Positions 43,417 through 50,900 of a stretch of DNA of 51,200 nt are shown here, one piece after another. The notes under the pieces are model-generated. The model saw only the letters and a program-made list of their open reading frames with translations, did no database searches and had not been told where the DNA came from. The DNA lies in NCBI GenBank assembly GCA_022071945.1, contig JAJVIN010000016.1:1-51200 (forward strand). Reading direction: 5' to 3'. The DNA comes from Thermoanaerobaculia bacterium. GTDB taxonomy: Bacteria; Acidobacteriota; Thermoanaerobaculia; UBA5066. How positions within the stretch are numbered: position 1 is the stretch's first letter; every line of letters begins with the position of its first letter. Position numbers and translations under genes: made by a program.

Positions 43417-44454
43417 CTAGCTCGCTTCTCTCAGTTCCTCCATCGCCACGGGCGCCGCAACGCTCACGCCTCCTCTTTCGGCACGGACCACCCGGGACCA
43501 GAGCGAAAGGCTCGGATCGAAGAGGAATCGGAAGAGGAGGCGCGTCCAGGACCGGTGACTGAAGAGCGCGTCATAGACCTCTGGCACTTCCCTCTTGACC
43601 GCCGGGAGCCTGTTCCAGGGTACCGACGGGAAGTCATGGTGTTCGTTGTGGTAACCGACGTTGAGCGCCAGCACGTTCAAGAATCCGTAGTAGCTCGTCG
43701 TCTCCTGGCTCCCATGAACGAGATAGTGCTCCTGGATCCACCTGGCTCCCAGGGGGTGCAGTCCGACGGAGAAGAAGAAGGATGCGCCCAGGAACAGAAG
43801 TGCCTTGGGTCCCAGGAGGAAGAAGACGAGGGCGTCGTACGCGAGCTGCGCCGCGATGTTGACGGCGACCCACCCGTCGAAGAGCCGGATTTCCTTCAGC
43901 CGTGCGGGCCTCGTGACCTGGAAGACCGGGAACAGGAAGAGCCACAGAGCCTTCCCGATCGCCGTCCTTCCAACGAGCCGCGCCTCCCAAACGCCCGGTA
44001 TGTCCGCATCCAGCTCGTAGACGCCCTGAAAGGCGTGATGCTTGAGGTGGTATTTCTGAAAGGAGACCGCGCTCGGCAGGAGGTGAGGGAGATTCGCCAG
44101 GATGGCGAGCGCCCGGTTCCAGACGCCGCCGCGGAAGACCAGATTGTGAGCACACTCGTGGATGAGGACCCAGAGCGTGTGGCTGACGAAAGCCCCGCAG
44201 CAGAACGCAGCGAGGAGAATCAACCAGATGGACTCCTCTCGAAGAAGCCACGCCGCTCCCGTCTGAACGCCGACGAGGAGCAACACGAGCAGAGCGCTCC
44301 ACGGATTGCGTCCGGCCAGGCCCCGGATCGCCGGGTGCTTCCGGAGGAGCTCCCGGCCACGAGGCGCGTGCGGTTCTCGCGTGGTGGAACGGGTGAAGTC
44401 CCTTCGGGTAGGGCCGGATGGCTCCGGAACTGGCGGGCCGGCGGAATCGGGCAT
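43417..44454 (-). CDS. Fatty acid desaturase close to sphingolipid delta-4 desaturase (DEGS)
   Basis: This is a 345-residue integral membrane di-iron desaturase. The three His boxes are HECAH (99-103), HLKHH (136-140) and HNEHH (269-273). Far beyond the boxes it follows animal dihydroceramide desaturase DEGS1: EPHAPRGRELLRKHPAIRGL, then HPLGARWIQEHYLVHGSQET and NVGYHNEHHDFPSVPWNRLP correspond to DEGS1 text such as QETYSYYG and NVGYHNEHHDFP. Several hydrophobic segments are present. It could add a trans double bond to a dihydroceramide-like base or hydroxylate it. No sphingolipid synthesis gene (SPT, CerS) is in the window. It is transcribed alone. Homology is strong; the substrate is inference. 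Confidence 0.88.
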   Translation of the reverse strand: MPDSAGPPVPEPSGPTRRDFTRSTTREPHAPRGRELLRKHPAIRGLAGRNPWSALLVLLLVGVQTGAAWLLREESIWLILLAAFCCGAFVSHTLWVLIHECAHNLVFRGGVWNRALAILANLPHLLPSAVSFQKYHLKHHAFQGVYELDADIPGVWEARLVGRTAIGKALWLFLFPVFQVTRPARLKEIRLFDGWVAVNIAAQLAYDALVFFLLGPKALLFLGASFFFSVGLHPLGARWIQEHYLVHGSQETTSYYGFLNVLALNVGYHNEHHDFPSVPWNRLPAVKREVPEVYDALFSHRSWTRLLFRFLFDPSLSLWSRVVRAERGGVSVAAPVAMEELREAS

Positions 44455-44697
44455 GCTTTGGTCCTAACCAGGGCATTCTAGCTGCCTCATGCGGGCGCCG
44501 GGCGTTCTGGCCATCACCGGTGGAGAACGGAGGCGCAACCGAGCGACCATCGAATCGATGAATACGAACTCCACGCCTTCACCCTCGAGTGCAGCCGGCA
44601 CGTGCCGCGCTACACCGACGGTCCTGTCAGCTCGTCTTCCAGAGGATACTGGCGGGCCACCTCGTGGCTGGCCTGCTATCGTGACGGAGATAAGTCC

Positions 44698-45297
44698 ATG
44701 CTGTCCTCAGGTCGTCTTCTCTCCGCCCTCGTGCTCTCGCTCGCCCTCATGCTCGCGGCCGTCGCGGGCTGGTGGGTGGGACGGCGAGCAAGCACGCGAG
44801 TGGAGCCCTCGATTTCCTCCGCTCCGGTCGTGACGGCTGTTCGCGACATTGCCAGGCTCGCGACCGTGGAAGTGGAGGTCGCCGACGTGATCCGGTACGA
44901 GGAAGTCCGGACGATCGTCGTCTTCGACATCCCGAAGAACGCGACCCTCAGGCTTCGCGGAACGGTGACGGGAGGCTTCGATCTGGCGAAGGGGTTTCGC
45001 GTGGACGTCGAGGAGAAGACGCGGCTTCTCCGCGTCCATTTACCGCCGCCGGAGATCCTCACGGTGGATGCGCGCATCGAGTGGTTCGACGAGAAGTCGG
45101 GCTGGCTCAACCCGATCACGCCAGAGGACCGGACCCGCTGGAGCACGTGGGCGCGCGGAGCCCTCGGACGTGCTGCGAAAGACGCCGGGATCCTCGAGCA
45201 AACGAACCGCCGCGGAAGAGAACTGCTCTCCCGCGCGGCGGGCGCCTTCGGCTGGACCGTACGCTTCGAGCCCCCCGGGCCGGTTCCGAAAGGCTGA
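44698..45297 (+). CDS. DUF4230-family membrane-anchored protein
   Basis: The product is 199 residues from the ATG at 44698, eight bases after GGAGA. An N-terminal membrane anchor (LLSALVLSLALMLAAVAGWW) is followed by a periplasmic domain. The DUF4230 pattern is present: RLATVEVEVADVIRYEE, then LRLRGTVTGGFDLAKGFRVD and LRVHLPPPEILTVDARIEWF. Function of the family is unknown. The frame from 44602 extends upstream but without a ribosome-binding site or match. It is divergent from the desaturase; the 243-base gap between them holds no other gene I can support. Confidence 0.82.
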   Translation: MLSSGRLLSALVLSLALMLAAVAGWWVGRRASTRVEPSISSAPVVTAVRDIARLATVEVEVADVIRYEEVRTIVVFDIPKNATLRLRGTVTGGFDLAKGFRVDVEEKTRLLRVHLPPPEILTVDARIEWFDEKSGWLNPITPEDRTRWSTWARGALGRAAKDAGILEQTNRRGRELLSRAAGAFGWTVRFEPPGPVPKG

Positions 45298-45417
45298 GAG
45301 CGGGTACGGACGCGGGAATCAGCGCACCCGGAAGATAGAATCGGAGAAAACCAGGTTGCCTGCTCCCTCCATCCGGCGAGACCGGGCTGCCTCACCGACA
45401 CCCGTAAGGAGATCGCG

Positions 45418-45891
45418 ATGGGATTCTTCAGCAAGATCCTCAACACGCTCGGATTCGGCGGTTCTGCGGGAGCTCAGGCTCCCGCGGGAGCTCAGGCTCC
45501 CGCCGCCGCTCAGGCTCCCGCGGCAGCTCCGGCCCCCGCGGTAACGCCCGCGGCTCCGGCGCCCGCTCCGGCAGCGGCCGCGCCCGCGACTCCGGCGAGT
45601 CCCGTCCCCGCTCCGCCGGCTCCGGTCACGGTGATCGATGTGGTCGGGCAGCTGGAGCAGCGCGCAGCGGCGAATCCGCAGAAGTTGAACTGGCGGACCT
45701 CGATCGTCGACCTGCTCAAGCTCCTGGAGATCGACAGCAGCTTCGCGGCTCGCAAAGAGCTGGCGGTGGAGCTGGGCTGTCCGGCCGAGCTCATGGCGGA
45801 TTCCGCGAAGATGAACATGTGGCTGCACAAGACCGTGCTCGCGAAGCTCGCCGCCAACGGCGGAAACGTTCCGGCCGATCTGCTGGATTGA
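45418..45891 (+). CDS. DUF3597-family protein with Ala/Pro-rich linker
   Basis: The product is 157 residues. It starts MGFFSKILNTLGFG, continues with an Ala/Pro repeat region (residues 17-70) encoded by 18-base repeats, and ends with a helical C-terminal domain (VIDVVGQLEQRAAANPQKLN, WRTSIVDLLKLLEIDSSFAA) ending GGNVPADLLD. This matches the DUF3597 pattern, which is often next to stress-related small proteins; function is unknown. No signal peptide. A GGAGATCGCG ribosome-binding region precedes the ATG. A YidB-type gene follows 38 bases later. Confidence 0.8.
   Translation: MGFFSKILNTLGFGGSAGAQAPAGAQAPAAAQAPAAAPAPAVTPAAPAPAPAAAAPATPASPVPAPPAPVTVIDVVGQLEQRAAANPQKLNWRTSIVDLLKLLEIDSSFAARKELAVELGCPAELMADSAKMNMWLHKTVLAKLAANGGNVPADLLD
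45466..45519 (+). repeat. 18-bp tandem repeat in the DUF3597 gene
   Basis: The unit GCGGGAGCTCAGGCTCCC occurs perfectly twice (45466-45483, 45484-45501) and once diverged (45502-45519). Each unit contains the inverted repeat GGGAGC-TCAG-GCTCCC and encodes AGAQAP. It can expand or contract in frame. Confidence 0.85.
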
Positions 45892-45929
45892 GCCCGCCTG
45901 GCATTCACCAAAGAGAGGGGAACAAGACA

Positions 45930-46532
45930 ATGCAGATCATGGACACTCTCGTCGAGATGGGCGGCATCGACTCGATAGCGCGAGAACTGGGCGTCAGCCC
46001 GGAACAGGCACAGAGCGGCGCCGCCGCGCTCGTCCCCGCGATCCTGGGCGGGTTCAAGAAACAGGCTCAGGCGCAGCCCGAGGGCTTCGACGCCCTGGGC
46101 GGGCTCCTCGGACAGCTGGGGGGCGGCGGCCTGCTCGATGACGTGATGTCCCCCCAGCCGACGAACGTCGACCGCGGGAATGACGTTCTCGGGCAGATCT
46201 TCGGATCCAAGGATGTGAGCCGCGCCGTCGCGCAGAACGCTGCGTCGCAGTCAGGCCTCGACCCTTCGCTTCTCAAGAAGATGTTGCCGATGCTGGCCAT
46301 GCTGGTCACGGGCTTCATGGCGAGAGGCAGCGGCGCCGAGCCGGCAGCGGGCGCCACGGGGCAGGCAGCCCCGCAGGGGGGCGGCCTCGGAGATCTGCTG
46401 GGGGGCCTGCTCGGTTCACAGCCTGGCGGCGCCGGAAATGCGGGCGGCGGACTCGCCTCGATCCTCGACGCCAACGGCGACGGTAATCCGCTGGACGACA
46501 TCCTGAAGATGGCCGGAAAGATGATGGGCTAG
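45930..46532 (+). CDS. YidB / DUF937-family protein
   Basis: The product is 200 residues from the ATG at 45930, with GAGAGGGG about ten bases upstream. The DUF937 core is MQIMDTLVEMGGIDSIAREL, then GVSPEQAQSGAAALVPAILG, VLGQIFGSKDVSRAVAQNAA and the Met-rich MLPMLAMLVTGFMARG. The C terminus is Gly-rich and ends with an acidic calcium-site-like ILDANGDGNPLDDILKM. The function of the family is unknown; it is cytoplasmic in other bacteria. It follows the DUF3597 gene on the same strand, probably one transcript. Confidence 0.82.
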   Translation: MQIMDTLVEMGGIDSIARELGVSPEQAQSGAAALVPAILGGFKKQAQAQPEGFDALGGLLGQLGGGGLLDDVMSPQPTNVDRGNDVLGQIFGSKDVSRAVAQNAASQSGLDPSLLKKMLPMLAMLVTGFMARGSGAEPAAGATGQAAPQGGGLGDLLGGLLGSQPGGAGNAGGGLASILDANGDGNPLDDILKMAGKMMG

Positions 46533-46681: not shown

Positions 46682-48424
46682 ATGACTGGGACAGAGCCTT
46701 CGCAGCCGCAGGATCTGCGCGAGCGAGTCGGCGCTGGCACGCGCATCGCGGAGCTCTACCAAGTCGAAAAGGACCTGGGCGTGGGGCAGTACACGGTCTC
46801 GCGCCTCGGTTTCCACCGCGAGAACAAGACGCTCTGCGTCATCAAGTCCCTGCCCCTGCAAGGTCTTGGCGATGCAAAGGTCGTGGAGCTTTTCGAGCGC
46901 GAGGCGAGTGTGCTGGCCCGGCTGGAACACCCGGGGATTCCTCGGTTCGTCGAACTGGTCCGGGAAGAGACGCCGGGCGGAAGACTCCTCCATCTCGTCC
47001 AGGAGTACGTGGAAGGAGAGAATCTCGAACAGGCCATCCAGCGCGGACTCCGGTTCACGGAATCCGATGTGAAGAGGATCGCGCGTGACCTCCTTTCGAT
47101 CGTCACCTACCTCCATGGCTTCCATCCGCCGCTGATCCACCGGGACATCAAGCCGAGCAATGTCATCCTCTCCCCCCGGGGCGAGATCTGGCTGGTCGAT
47201 TTCGGCGGCGTTCGGGACAAGCTCATGCTGGATGCCGCCAGCGAGGGGCATGGGTTCACGGTCGTCGGCACCTATGGATACATGCCGTTCGAGCAGTTCG
47301 AAGGCCGGGCCCTGCCCGCGTCGGACCTCTACGCCATCGGCGTGACCCTCATCTACTTGCTCTCTCACAAGGAACCCGTCGATTTCGAGCGGAAGGGAAT
47401 GAAGATCGATTTCCTTCCTTCGATCAATGTCGCGCCGGAATTCGGAAGGATTCTCGAGAAGCTCGTCGAGCCGCATCTCCAGGACAGGTATTCCTCCGCG
47501 GAAGAGGTCCTCCGAGATCTCGATCGAGGTCCGGGAACCCGGAAGAAGCTCCTCGGTCCGATCTCCGCCGCACTTGCGGCCGGGGTCGTCCTGGCACTCT
47601 GGCTCGGTCGCACCGTCACTCCGGGGGGAGGATCCGCCCCGAGAGAAACACCTTTACCGGCAAGAGGAGAGGCCCGGCTCGTCGACGGGCTCGAGACCGC
47701 CTCGGAGGGCGAGGGTTCATCTGGCGGTGGTGCAGCCGAAAAGAGGATGCTCCCAGAGCCGGGGGGGCCCCCGTCGGTGCGCGGGACCGTGCTCTATGAC
47801 GGCCGTCCCATCTCGGAGGTCACGAAGGTCTCTCCGAAGTTCTGGTTTCGAAACGAAAAGACGGGGAAGGCCGCCACCGCCATCGCACGATTCAGGGACG
47901 GAGCCGTGGCGATTCACGGCCTCTCTCCGGGGACCTACGGGATCAACCTGAGCTTCGACGCCGTTCTTGACAACCGGAGCGGGTTCCCCGGTGACCTCTA
48001 CGCCTGGAAGATCTTCGAGGTTCCCGAATCCGGCACCGCCGAGATCTCGGTCGATGTCCAGCGGCTCATCCACCTCCTCGAGCCGCAGGACAACAACAGC
48101 GTCCAGGACGGCTGGGGAGAGGCGTGTGAGGGAAAACCCTCTCATTCGACTCCTCTTCTCTTCGCCTGGAAGCCCGTGGAGCCCGGCGCGATCTACGACT
48201 GGGAGGTCCTGCGCGTCCAGTGCCCCTACAAGGAACAGACGCGCGTCGCCTCGGGACAGACACCCGAGACGCGCGTCCGGGTCTCTCTGGCTCCCAGCAA
48301 GCCGGGCGAGTTCTACCTGTTCAACCTCCATGCTCGCAAGAACGGGCGCGGCGTGGGCCTGCTCATGACCTACGGGTCATTCGGCCATGGCTGGGACTAC
48401 CGCTTCGTCGTGAGGCAGAGATGA
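46682..48424 (+). CDS. Receptor-like Ser/Thr kinase with novel ectodomain (first of tandem pair)
   Basis: The product is 580 residues. The kinase domain spans about 25-285: the Gly loop is degenerate (LGVGQYTVSRLG, lacking the third Gly), but Lys55, Glu74, HRD (153-155) with DIKPSN, and DFG (173-175) are intact. GTYGYMPFEQFEGRALPASD is the activation segment. One membrane helix lies at about 290-309 (PISAALAAGVVLALWLGRTV). Beyond a Gly/Glu linker, residues 360-580 form two beta-rich modules, a regulatory-peptidase-like part (SVRGTVLYDGRPISEVTKV) and a last module with LLFAWKPVEPGAIYDWEVLR. The two Cys of the second module may form a disulfide. Its stop overlaps the second kinase by four bases. 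Confidence 0.88.
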   Translation: MTGTEPSQPQDLRERVGAGTRIAELYQVEKDLGVGQYTVSRLGFHRENKTLCVIKSLPLQGLGDAKVVELFEREASVLARLEHPGIPRFVELVREETPGGRLLHLVQEYVEGENLEQAIQRGLRFTESDVKRIARDLLSIVTYLHGFHPPLIHRDIKPSNVILSPRGEIWLVDFGGVRDKLMLDAASEGHGFTVVGTYGYMPFEQFEGRALPASDLYAIGVTLIYLLSHKEPVDFERKGMKIDFLPSINVAPEFGRILEKLVEPHLQDRYSSAEEVLRDLDRGPGTRKKLLGPISAALAAGVVLALWLGRTVTPGGGSAPRETPLPARGEARLVDGLETASEGEGSSGGGAAEKRMLPEPGGPPSVRGTVLYDGRPISEVTKVSPKFWFRNEKTGKAATAIARFRDGAVAIHGLSPGTYGINLSFDAVLDNRSGFPGDLYAWKIFEVPESGTAEISVDVQRLIHLLEPQDNNSVQDGWGEACEGKPSHSTPLLFAWKPVEPGAIYDWEVLRVQCPYKEQTRVASGQTPETRVRVSLAPSKPGEFYLFNLHARKNGRGVGLLMTYGSFGHGWDYRFVVRQR

Positions 48425-50034
48425 TCGAGCGGCTCGAGTTTCGAGAGGAGTTGGGCCGAAGTCCTCATGCGCTGACGACACTCCGTTTCGATGCGGTGAG
48501 CGGAAAGCTGTGCGTCGTGAAGTCTCTCGATCTCGGGAAGGTGACCGATCTTCGGATCATCGAGATGTTCCGGCGCGAGGCGAAGGTCCTTCGCGGGCTG
48601 GACCACCCGCGAATCCCGAAGCTCCTCGACATGTTCGAGGAACGGGGGCCGGCGACGCTTCGGCTGCACCTCGTTCAGGAGTATGTCGAGGGGGAGAACC
48701 TCGCCCTCGCGCGTTCAAAGCGGAGCTTCAGCGAGGAAGAGGTGATCGGCATCGCACGCGATTTACTCGGTGTTCTGCGGTACCTGCACTCGTTCTCGCC
48801 CCCCATCATCCACCGCGACATCAAGCCCGGCAATGTCGTTCTGTCGAAAACCGGAGTCCACCTGATCGATTTCAGCGGTGTCCGCGACACGCTGAAGCAA
48901 GACAGGGACGAGAAGGGCGGATTCACGATCGTCGGCAGCTACGGTTACATGCCCTTCGAGCAGTACGAGGGGAGAGCCCTGCCGGCTTCCGACATCTACG
49001 CGCTCGGGATGACGCTCGTCTTTCTCGTCACCGGGCTCGAGCCCTCGGATCTGGAACGTCAGGGGATGAGGCTCGCCATCCCGTCCGAGGCAACCCTGTC
49101 GCCCCGTTTTCGCGCCGTCCTGTCGCGGATGATCGAACCGGATGCCAGAAACCGCTACCAGAACGTCGAAGAGGTCGAGAGTGCACTCACCGCCTCGAAG
49201 AGAGTCAGGCATCCACGCCGGAGAGCAGCCGCGTTCGCCGTCCTCGGGACGCTGGCCCTGGCGGCAGCGGTGCTGCTGTTCCTCGAAAGGCGCCCCCGTC
49301 CTTCCGACGCGGCGGTGCCGCCACCGGGTCCGGTCCGGAAGGCGAGACCGGCACGCGGGGCGAGCCTCGAGAGAACTGCCAGAACGCCCGTCCGTGAGAC
49401 GTTCGAGCTGACTCCGCCAGATCCGGTGACGTCGAAACTGGTTGCCCGCGGCCTCATCACCTACGCCTCGGAGCCTGTTCACCTGACGTTTCCCGAAACG
49501 CCTGGGATTCGGATCAATGCCGCCGGGGGAGGCGAGTTGAACCCTCCGATGCGCTACGAAAAGAGCACGCTCGAGATCTTCGACTTGAAACCCGGTGGCT
49601 ACTTCGTCTCGGCCCTTCGCGGTTCAGGGGAGGCTCTCTACCACGGCGGACTGGAGATCCTCGTCGAGGAAGGCCGGGTCGTCGAGTTCGAGTTCCACGT
49701 GTCGAGGCAGATCCAGTTCGAGCGTCTGGAGAGGGAAGAGGGCGTCCAGCCGCTTTGCGAGACCCCGGTTCGGTCTCCCGTGAAAGTGCAATGGAAGCCC
49801 TTCGAACCCGGCACGTTCTATGACTACGACGTCTACGAGAACCGCTGCGATGGAAAGGGCCGGGCCCGCCCACTGCTGTCTGGCTCGACCCAGAAGACGA
49901 TGCTCACTCTCGAGCTTCCGGAAAGCGGCTCCGGGATGCGCTACCAGGTGAACATCGGAGCTCGCCGCGGCGGCACCTGGGCCGGGAACGGAGGGATCCT
50001 GTTCGTCGTCGCAAAAGGACCCGAGGCAAGGTGA
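48421..50034 (+). CDS. Receptor-like Ser/Thr kinase, second of tandem pair, degenerate loop and DFS
   Basis: The product is 537 residues, paralogous to the gene before it, from which it is inseparable by overlap (ATGA at 48421). It starts about 25 residues later in the alignment. The Gly loop is lost (ELGRSPHALTTLRF), and the DFG motif is DFS (residues 150-152); Lys34, HRD (131-133) and GYMPFEQYEGRALPASD are kept. A membrane helix lies at about 269-288. The ectodomain matches the neighbour, including VQWKPFEPGTFYDYDVYENR and two Cys, but is shorter. With a missing Gly loop and DFS it may be a weak kinase or pseudokinase acting with its partner. The extended frame before 48421 is kinase-1 shadow. 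Confidence 0.87.
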   Translation: MIERLEFREELGRSPHALTTLRFDAVSGKLCVVKSLDLGKVTDLRIIEMFRREAKVLRGLDHPRIPKLLDMFEERGPATLRLHLVQEYVEGENLALARSKRSFSEEEVIGIARDLLGVLRYLHSFSPPIIHRDIKPGNVVLSKTGVHLIDFSGVRDTLKQDRDEKGGFTIVGSYGYMPFEQYEGRALPASDIYALGMTLVFLVTGLEPSDLERQGMRLAIPSEATLSPRFRAVLSRMIEPDARNRYQNVEEVESALTASKRVRHPRRRAAAFAVLGTLALAAAVLLFLERRPRPSDAAVPPPGPVRKARPARGASLERTARTPVRETFELTPPDPVTSKLVARGLITYASEPVHLTFPETPGIRINAAGGGELNPPMRYEKSTLEIFDLKPGGYFVSALRGSGEALYHGGLEILVEEGRVVEFEFHVSRQIQFERLEREEGVQPLCETPVRSPVKVQWKPFEPGTFYDYDVYENRCDGKGRARPLLSGSTQKTMLTLELPESGSGMRYQVNIGARRGGTWAGNGGILFVVAKGPEAR

Positions 50035-50147: not shown

Positions 50148-50900
50148 TCACTTGGCCGAGGGCGGAGGAAGCCTGGACGTGATCTCCTCTCGCAGGGCCG
50201 CGATCTCGCTCCGCAGGAGAGCGATCTCGCCGGAGTCCTCCTTCTGTTCGGGCTTGAGAAACCACGAGGCGACGAAGCCCGAGAAGGTTCCGAAGAGTCC
50301 CACTCCCGCGGTCATCAGGAGCGAGGCGACCAGGCGGCCCTCGGTCGAGATGGGGTAGCGATCGCCGTAGCCCACGGTGGTGACCGTGACGAAGGCCCAC
50401 CAGAGTGCGTCCTCGGGCGTCTTGATGTTGGCGTCCGGGCTGTTCTCGAAGTGAAGGACGGCAATCGCCGCGATGATGGACAGGAGCAGGGAGACGAGGG
50501 ACGCGGTCAAGAAGGCCCCTTCCGCCCTCCTTCGAATGATGAACTCGGCCAGCGTCTTCGTGGACCGGATCCCGCGCAGGACCCTCACGATTCGCAGGAT
50601 CCTGCCCGTTCTCCCCAGACGGAGCGCGTCGACGGCGGGAATGCTCGAGAGGAGGTCGAGCCATCCCCAGGTCGTCATGTAACGCAGCTTGCTCTCGGCC
50701 CGGTAGAACGAGCGAAGGAAATCGAGGAGGAAAAAGACGCAGATCAGGTTGTCCGCGTATTCGAGGATCTCCTCGGTCTTTTGATCGAGGGGCGCCAGGA
50801 CCTGCACTCCCAGGATGACGAGCGCCGTGAAACTGATCATGAGCAAGAAGACCAGGTAGGGGCTGGGCCGGTCGTGCTCCGGATCGTGGTCGATCTTCAT
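50148..50900 (-). CDS. Voltage-gated potassium channel (six-helix)
   Basis: The product is 250 residues, the size of bacterial voltage-gated K+ channels such as KvAP-like proteins. The selectivity filter TVGYGD is present in FVTVTTVGYGDRYPIS. The voltage sensor S4 is RLGRTGRILRIVRVLRGIRS with Arg every three or four residues, after LLSSIPAVDAL. S1 to S6 hydrophobic segments are visible, with the last AGVGLFGTFSGFVASWF. A short coiled coil (GEIALLRSEIAALREEITSR) ends the protein and may help tetramerise. It is convergent with the kinase pair, and an inverted repeat lies 120 bases upstream of its start. Confidence 0.9.
   Translation of the reverse strand: MKIDHDPEHDRPSPYLVFLLMISFTALVILGVQVLAPLDQKTEEILEYADNLICVFFLLDFLRSFYRAESKLRYMTTWGWLDLLSSIPAVDALRLGRTGRILRIVRVLRGIRSTKTLAEFIIRRRAEGAFLTASLVSLLLSIIAAIAVLHFENSPDANIKTPEDALWWAFVTVTTVGYGDRYPISTEGRLVASLLMTAGVGLFGTFSGFVASWFLKPEQKEDSGEIALLRSEIAALREEITSRLPPPSAK

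Follow-up and report, generated by a model that had tools for sequence, protein, structure and literature searches.

Receptor-like kinases can work in asymmetric pairs, as in HER2/HER3, a eukaryotic receptor pair of an active kinase and an impaired paralog. Two overlapping Ser/Thr kinase genes on a contig of a Thermoanaerobaculia bacterium (JAJVIN010000016.1; the window, meaning the whole stretch analyzed here, comprises 51,200 nucleotides) had been likened in a preliminary description to a receptor pair of this kind. The locus thus raises the question of whether the second kinase is a pseudokinase serving the first, an altered but functioning partner, or an independent receptor.

A tandem pair of paralogous receptor kinases

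The two genes have the sequence ATGA in common, the start codon of kinase 2 lying within the stop of kinase 1 (Table 1). Both proteins are Hanks-type Ser/Thr kinases, scoring over the Pkinase cut-off of 31.7 bits (kinase 1, 113.4; kinase 2, 100.3) and containing the beta-3 Lys, alpha-C Glu, HRD, Asn and DFG Asp. Kinases are abundant in the host genome, with 106 Pkinase stretches, among which the two are mutual best paralogs (38% identity over almost the full length); the next-best kinases of the same genome reach 31-33%, in the kinase part only. Hydropathy analysis revealed a single strong hydrophobic segment in each protein, and the two ectodomains align at 29-30% identity with two cysteines in common. 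The reciprocal paralogy, the 4-base overlap, the single membrane helices and the related two-cysteine ectodomains all agree with what had been read from the locus before.

Table 1. Coordinates of the two kinase genes and their features in the window
Feature	Position	Strand	Details
Kinase 1	46682..48424	+	580 aa; N-terminal Ser/Thr kinase, one membrane helix, C-terminal ectodomain
Kinase 1 Pkinase domain PF00069	46757..47494	+	residues 26-271
Kinase 1 Gly loop GVGQYT	46778-46795	+	alignment
Kinase 1 HRD	47138-47146	+	alignment
Kinase 1 DFG	47198-47206	+	alignment
Kinase 1 predicted membrane helix	47549..47605	+	residues 290-308, hydropathy only
Kinase 1 ectodomain, first beta sandwich, carboxypeptidase-regulatory / Cna-B-like fold (predicted)	47762..48076	+	model
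Kinase 1 ectodomain, second domain, FN3-like (predicted), with Cys482 and Cys514	48077..48385	+	model, alignment
Kinase 2	48421..50034	+	537 aa from overlapping ATG; paralog with altered Gly loop and DFS
Kinase 2 Pkinase domain	48448..49161	+	profile match
Kinase 2 loop GRSPHA	48454-48471	+	alignment
Kinase 2 HRD	48811-48819	+	alignment
Kinase 2 DFS	48868-48876	+	alignment
Kinase 2 predicted membrane helix	49228..49284	+	residues 270-288, hydropathy only
Kinase 2 ectodomain, first beta sandwich (predicted)	49420..49713	+	model
Kinase 2 ectodomain, second domain, FN3-like (predicted)	49768..50004	+	shared Cys 446, 476 around domain start; model, alignment

Glycine loops and catalytic residues

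For a census of loop residues, 100 stretches surrounding Pkinase matches in this genome were aligned with both kinases, yielding an alignment of 105 rows; 4 to 6 gap rows per column were set aside, and 99 to 101 rows were scored per site. Of 99 rows, 30 have lost the third Gly (both window kinases counted) and 10 the first, a single one, that of kinase 2, has lost the second, and the DFG Gly is changed in 5 of 100. A second alignment, which took in 96 rows of the same genome longer than 220 residues, gave the same picture except for one other row with Thr at the second Gly position. In kinase 1, DFG is kept and the third Gly is indeed replaced, by Thr, as noted earlier; however, the loop must be regarded as ordinary, because nearly a third of the scored kinase domains of this genome lack the same residue, and an impaired kinase 1 is rejected on this ground.

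The earlier view that kinase 2 lacks the loop and has DFS for DFG holds in part. Its second Gly is replaced by Ser, its third by Ala, and DFG reads DFS, but the first Gly and the full catalytic set are kept. Since positioning of the ATP phosphates and movement of the activation segment are normally aided by the second loop Gly and the DFG Gly, a reduced activity of kinase 2 is likely from its sequence; altered-loop kinases can still be active. Loss of the beta-3 Lys, the HRD Asp or the DFG Asp marks a bacterial pseudokinase in a review of such families (PMC12599244). Both window kinases and the kinase 2 ortholog described below retain all three residues, and, judged by these residues, kinase 2 is not a pseudokinase by the usual definition; on this definition the proposed likeness to a pseudokinase is not supported.

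Three other kinases of the same genome (L146, L148 and L150; C14, C25 and C17) have changed catalytic residues. In two of them the beta-3 Lys is replaced by Arg and DFG reads DFD; in one, which is weakly aligned, HRD reads HCN and DFG reads DWS.

Conservation of the pair and selection on kinase 2

The pair was sought in 60 relatives and in 148 genomes of the class, and it is present in 2 of the 148, the one other genome (G031) belonging to another family. There the kinases stand in the same order, spaced by 15 nt instead of overlapping, and kinase 1 is truncated by the contig edge. The G031 kinase 2 ortholog also has GRSPHA and DFS, with K, E, HRD, N and D intact. That a second family has this pair, in identical order and with identical changes in kinase 2, argues that the pairing is beyond chance, and bears out the earlier reading of tandem receptor-like paralogs of which the second is asymmetrically altered.

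The two kinase 2 orthologs are 69.5% identical over their kinase domains and 51.5% over their ectodomains. Codon-change counts gave dN 0.22 and dS 1.8 for the kinase domain (dN/dS about 0.12), and dN 0.47 and dS 1.9 for the ectodomain, with dS near saturation in both. A ratio of this size together with the conserved frame indicates, at the level of codon changes, that the loop-altered kinase 2 domain is under purifying selection, stronger than that on its own ectodomain.

A wider conserved operon was rejected as a candidate, since only the two kinases matched as orthologous neighbours within 17.7 kb of G031; further matches in this comparison fell to an ABC-ATPase-like frame and to frames running antisense to the kinases. 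Directly upstream of kinase 1 in the window, DUF4230, DUF3597 and DUF937 genes stand in a row (44602-46529, +), a row that was not found beside the pair in G031. An Ion_trans / Ion_trans_2 channel gene (50148-50900, -) is convergent with the pair, and a fatty acid desaturase gene (43420-44454, -) has an N-terminal match to Lipid_DES (sphingolipid delta-4 desaturase), an unusual enzyme type in a bacterium.

Distribution of the ectodomain module

A phyletic search for the ectodomain refutes the idea of a kinase-bound module. With the kinase 1 ectodomain as query, 11 of 148 class genomes match (E 1e-4): three with kinases, one with a weak-MORN_2 protein (G069) and seven with secreted-looking proteins, which by eye have an extra C-terminal region, the one in G129 beginning at a contig end. 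A 13-row profile matches 8 of 396 genomes drawn from the phylum (E 1e-6), with the module carried by a Sel1-repeat protein in G025 and by kinases in G172 and G205, the latter with a Laminin_G_3 domain as well. Of 294 genomes from the phylum of a named planctomycete MAG, 9 match (E 1e-5); here the module sits twice in HEAT-repeat proteins, and it also occurs in proteins that look thioredoxin-like by eye and in the kinases of G563. The secreted and repeat-protein carriers found in the class, phylum and planctomycete searches rule out a module exclusive to these kinases.

In two genomes of the planctomycete set (L180:1-1824 and L181:2-1687, both -), a kinase-like protein adjoins the two-copy HEAT-repeat module protein. 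It scores over the Pkinase cut-off and by eye lacks HRD and DFG (HHGRLHPGDV); on sequence grounds, these are likely true pseudokinases with a conserved neighbour.

Fold of the ectodomain

The ectodomains of both kinases were modelled from two sequences each, with mean pLDDT values of 74.8 and 76.3, and both models consist of two beta sandwiches. Structural matches to the first domain of kinase 1 comprise a putative adhesin, DUF4876 and DUF3823 proteins, a rhamnogalacturonan lyase domain and pilin domains (Z 8.0-8.9, rmsd 2.5-5.1, 79 to 96 residues). The second domain matches FN3 domains and similar sandwiches with Z of about 6-7, a range commonly met. Whole-model Foldseek matches stay under TM 0.36, because the two domains are set differently. 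Among 13 ectodomain members scanned singly, the CarboxypepD_reg profile matches one (E 0.034) and the fn3 profile two (best E 0.0014), both weak signals, the latter in none of the window proteins; a profile of the 13 members against solved structures gave a best E of 0.0059. The WKPxEPGxxY core aligns with W-x-PVPxAxxYxV of secreted homologues, which we take to be the B-C strand signature of FN3.

The models thus suggest two known folds, a carboxypeptidase-regulatory/Cna-B-like sandwich followed by an FN3-like domain, and a wholly new ectodomain is not supported in view of these models, the weak profile hits and the aligned core. The claim that it is unlike PASTA is upheld: a Pfam scan found no PASTA match in either kinase and no family at cut-off in the window ectodomains, the only signal being sub-threshold MliC (E 0.06-0.14), and the NCBIfam PknB_PASTA_kin scores of kinases 1 and 2 are 104.9 and 92.9 bits against a cut-off of 450. 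By these profile searches, it is a receptor-kinase ectodomain without its own Pfam family at cut-off and common to secreted proteins. Its two cysteines are invariant in the 13 members but missing in G563 and in three relatives from the planctomycete set; a disulfide in the second, FN3-like domain is probable.

Single kinases, a second tandem pair and the kinase tree

Kinases with the module also occur singly. G172 and G205, of the same phylum, each have one, with loops GEGGFA and GRGGFA and with DFG. The single module kinase of G061, a genome from the genus of G031, was read across two contigs with an 11-nt overlap; its second and third Gly are absent (GESNYA) and its DFG is intact. A kinase tree was built and then repeated with other rows, with moderate supports given as two figures. 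The two kinase 2 proteins group together (100/100), the G061 kinase joins them (93/89; repeat 87/88), and kinase 1 lies outside this group (97/95; repeat 91/94). The placement of G061 is unsure, because its ectodomain resembles that of kinase 1 (39%) more than that of kinase 2 (25%). The stem branch of the kinase 2 ectodomains measures 2.29 changes per column, as against 0.40 for the kinase domains (first tree). The simplest reading of the tree would be a canonical-loop ancestor, a duplication, loss of the second Gly before the split of G061 and kinase 2, and then DFS and fast ectodomain change in kinase 2.

Two kinases side by side in G563, a genome of the planctomycete set, combine Reg_prop repeats with the module, both with GEGGFA (third Gly replaced by Ala, otherwise canonical) and DFG. 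They group by themselves in the repeat tree (99/98) and therefore stem from a separate duplication. This independent tandem pair suggests a recurrent use of such kinases in pairs.

Comparison with known systems

PknB/StkP-type Hanks kinases, which include the closest solved kinases by sequence (StkP and PknB), likewise have the kinase inside, one membrane helix and an extracellular sensor; the window pair differs in having a beta-sandwich module in place of PASTA, in its tandem, co-translated arrangement and in the altered loop of kinase 2. The closest named kinase domains are those of Cyanobacteria/Ktedonobacteria kinases (31-40% identity), in which, unlike kinase 2, the first two loop Gly and DFG are kept in all rows examined. 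Six of 13 such loci (L001, L002, L003, L004, L008 and L011, from Ktedonobacteria and a cyanobacterium) hold two neighbouring kinase genes, their loops all being canonical. The ectodomain was not found in six genomes of this group, an empty result being uninformative in this search.

Periplasmic propeller and Y_Y_Y sensors are a known architecture of two-component systems. In the G563 kinases the module comes after Reg_prop repeats, and one HEAT-repeat relative has a weak Y_Y_Y match, features that recall these sensors, whereas here a Ser/Thr kinase provides the output, the FN3-like domain lies far C-terminal and the window proteins have no propeller match. The sequence relation to HER2/HER3 is limited to the kinase fold; kinase 2 keeps its full catalytic set, and a pairing of the two proteins is putative. 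The bacterial pseudokinase families ActPs1-3, DLHK, GLW, CP1 and DYD, reviewed in PMC12599244, resemble kinase 2 in having altered nucleotide-site motifs, but they lose the Lys, the HRD Asp or the DFG Asp, while the losses in kinase 2 are confined to loop glycines and the DFG Gly. A literature search on bacterial pseudokinases, tandem receptor kinases, the ectodomain and kinase heterodimers, with thin coverage of subscription journals, returned no report of the pair or the module.

Possible functions of the pair

The reading that we favor, tentatively, is a co-translated receptor pair in which an ordinary kinase 1 and a conserved, loop-altered kinase 2 probably heterodimerise. Each kinase would be cytoplasmic, connected by one helix to a two-domain beta-sandwich module outside that may bind a ligand or a partner. 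Kinase 1 would be the ordinary catalytic subunit and main enzyme. Kinase 2 probably still binds nucleotide, its changed loop and DFS causing low or specially regulated phosphotransfer, and the co-made proteins probably meet through their ectodomains and kinase N-lobes, with kinase 2 acting mainly as an activator, receiver or tuner of kinase 1. The fast divergence of the kinase 2 ectodomain suggests that it may sense something different or form the other half of a binding site. This asymmetric-pair reading seems weakened most by the symmetric G563 pair, whose two canonical loops and DFG motifs indicate that pairing needs no altered partner, and by the lone G061 kinase, whose altered loop indicates that loop loss is not tied to partner status. 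The narrow occurrence of the pair, in 2 of the 148 class genomes, also counts against it.

It is also possible, if somewhat doubtful, that both kinases are active, separate homodimerising receptors, with kinase 2 tolerating its loop and DFS and the overlap just equalising expression after tandem duplication. The full catalytic residue set in both, the strong conservation of the kinase 2 kinase domain and the canonical-looking G563 pair all fit such receptors, and ectodomains as far apart as 29% identity would suit different ligands. However, loss of the second Gly is almost unique in the genome, a change of the DFG Gly is rare (5 of 100), and the loop and DFS changes are fixed together in two families. 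The joint, conserved loss of loop and DFG glycines and the co-translation with an ordinary paralog would likewise suit a functional pseudokinase in the HER3 sense, a catalytically silent allosteric partner of kinase 1; yet this is improbable, as the beta-3 Lys, alpha-C Glu, HRD Asp, Asn and DFG Asp are kept in two orthologs and HRDIKPxN, unneeded by a silent partner, is intact. That kinase 2 is a decaying, functionless duplicate is barely credible: conserved loop residues have been lost, but the open frame, the kinase-domain identity across families and the selection estimate argue against a decayed gene, a reading that was rejected.

A broader proposal built on the asymmetric heterodimer is rather unlikely as a whole. 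It would see here a bacterial counterpart of asymmetric receptor heterodimers, an obligate transmembrane Ser/Thr kinase pair in which one paralog has long been held with a broken Gly loop and DFS as an allosteric partner, within a receptor family that has a beta-sandwich ectodomain and several sensor inserts, spans two phyla and has seen tandem pairs arise at least twice.

The observed kinase pair is genuine, conserved and slightly odd, an unusual form of a receptor type that is itself common. If the asymmetric heterodimer is true, bacteria would have built receptor kinase pairs of the animal and plant kind, and the locus would offer a small system for asking how loop-altered kinases signal. 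The ectodomain, without a Pfam family of its own at cut-off and common to secreted proteins, may lead to its ligand.
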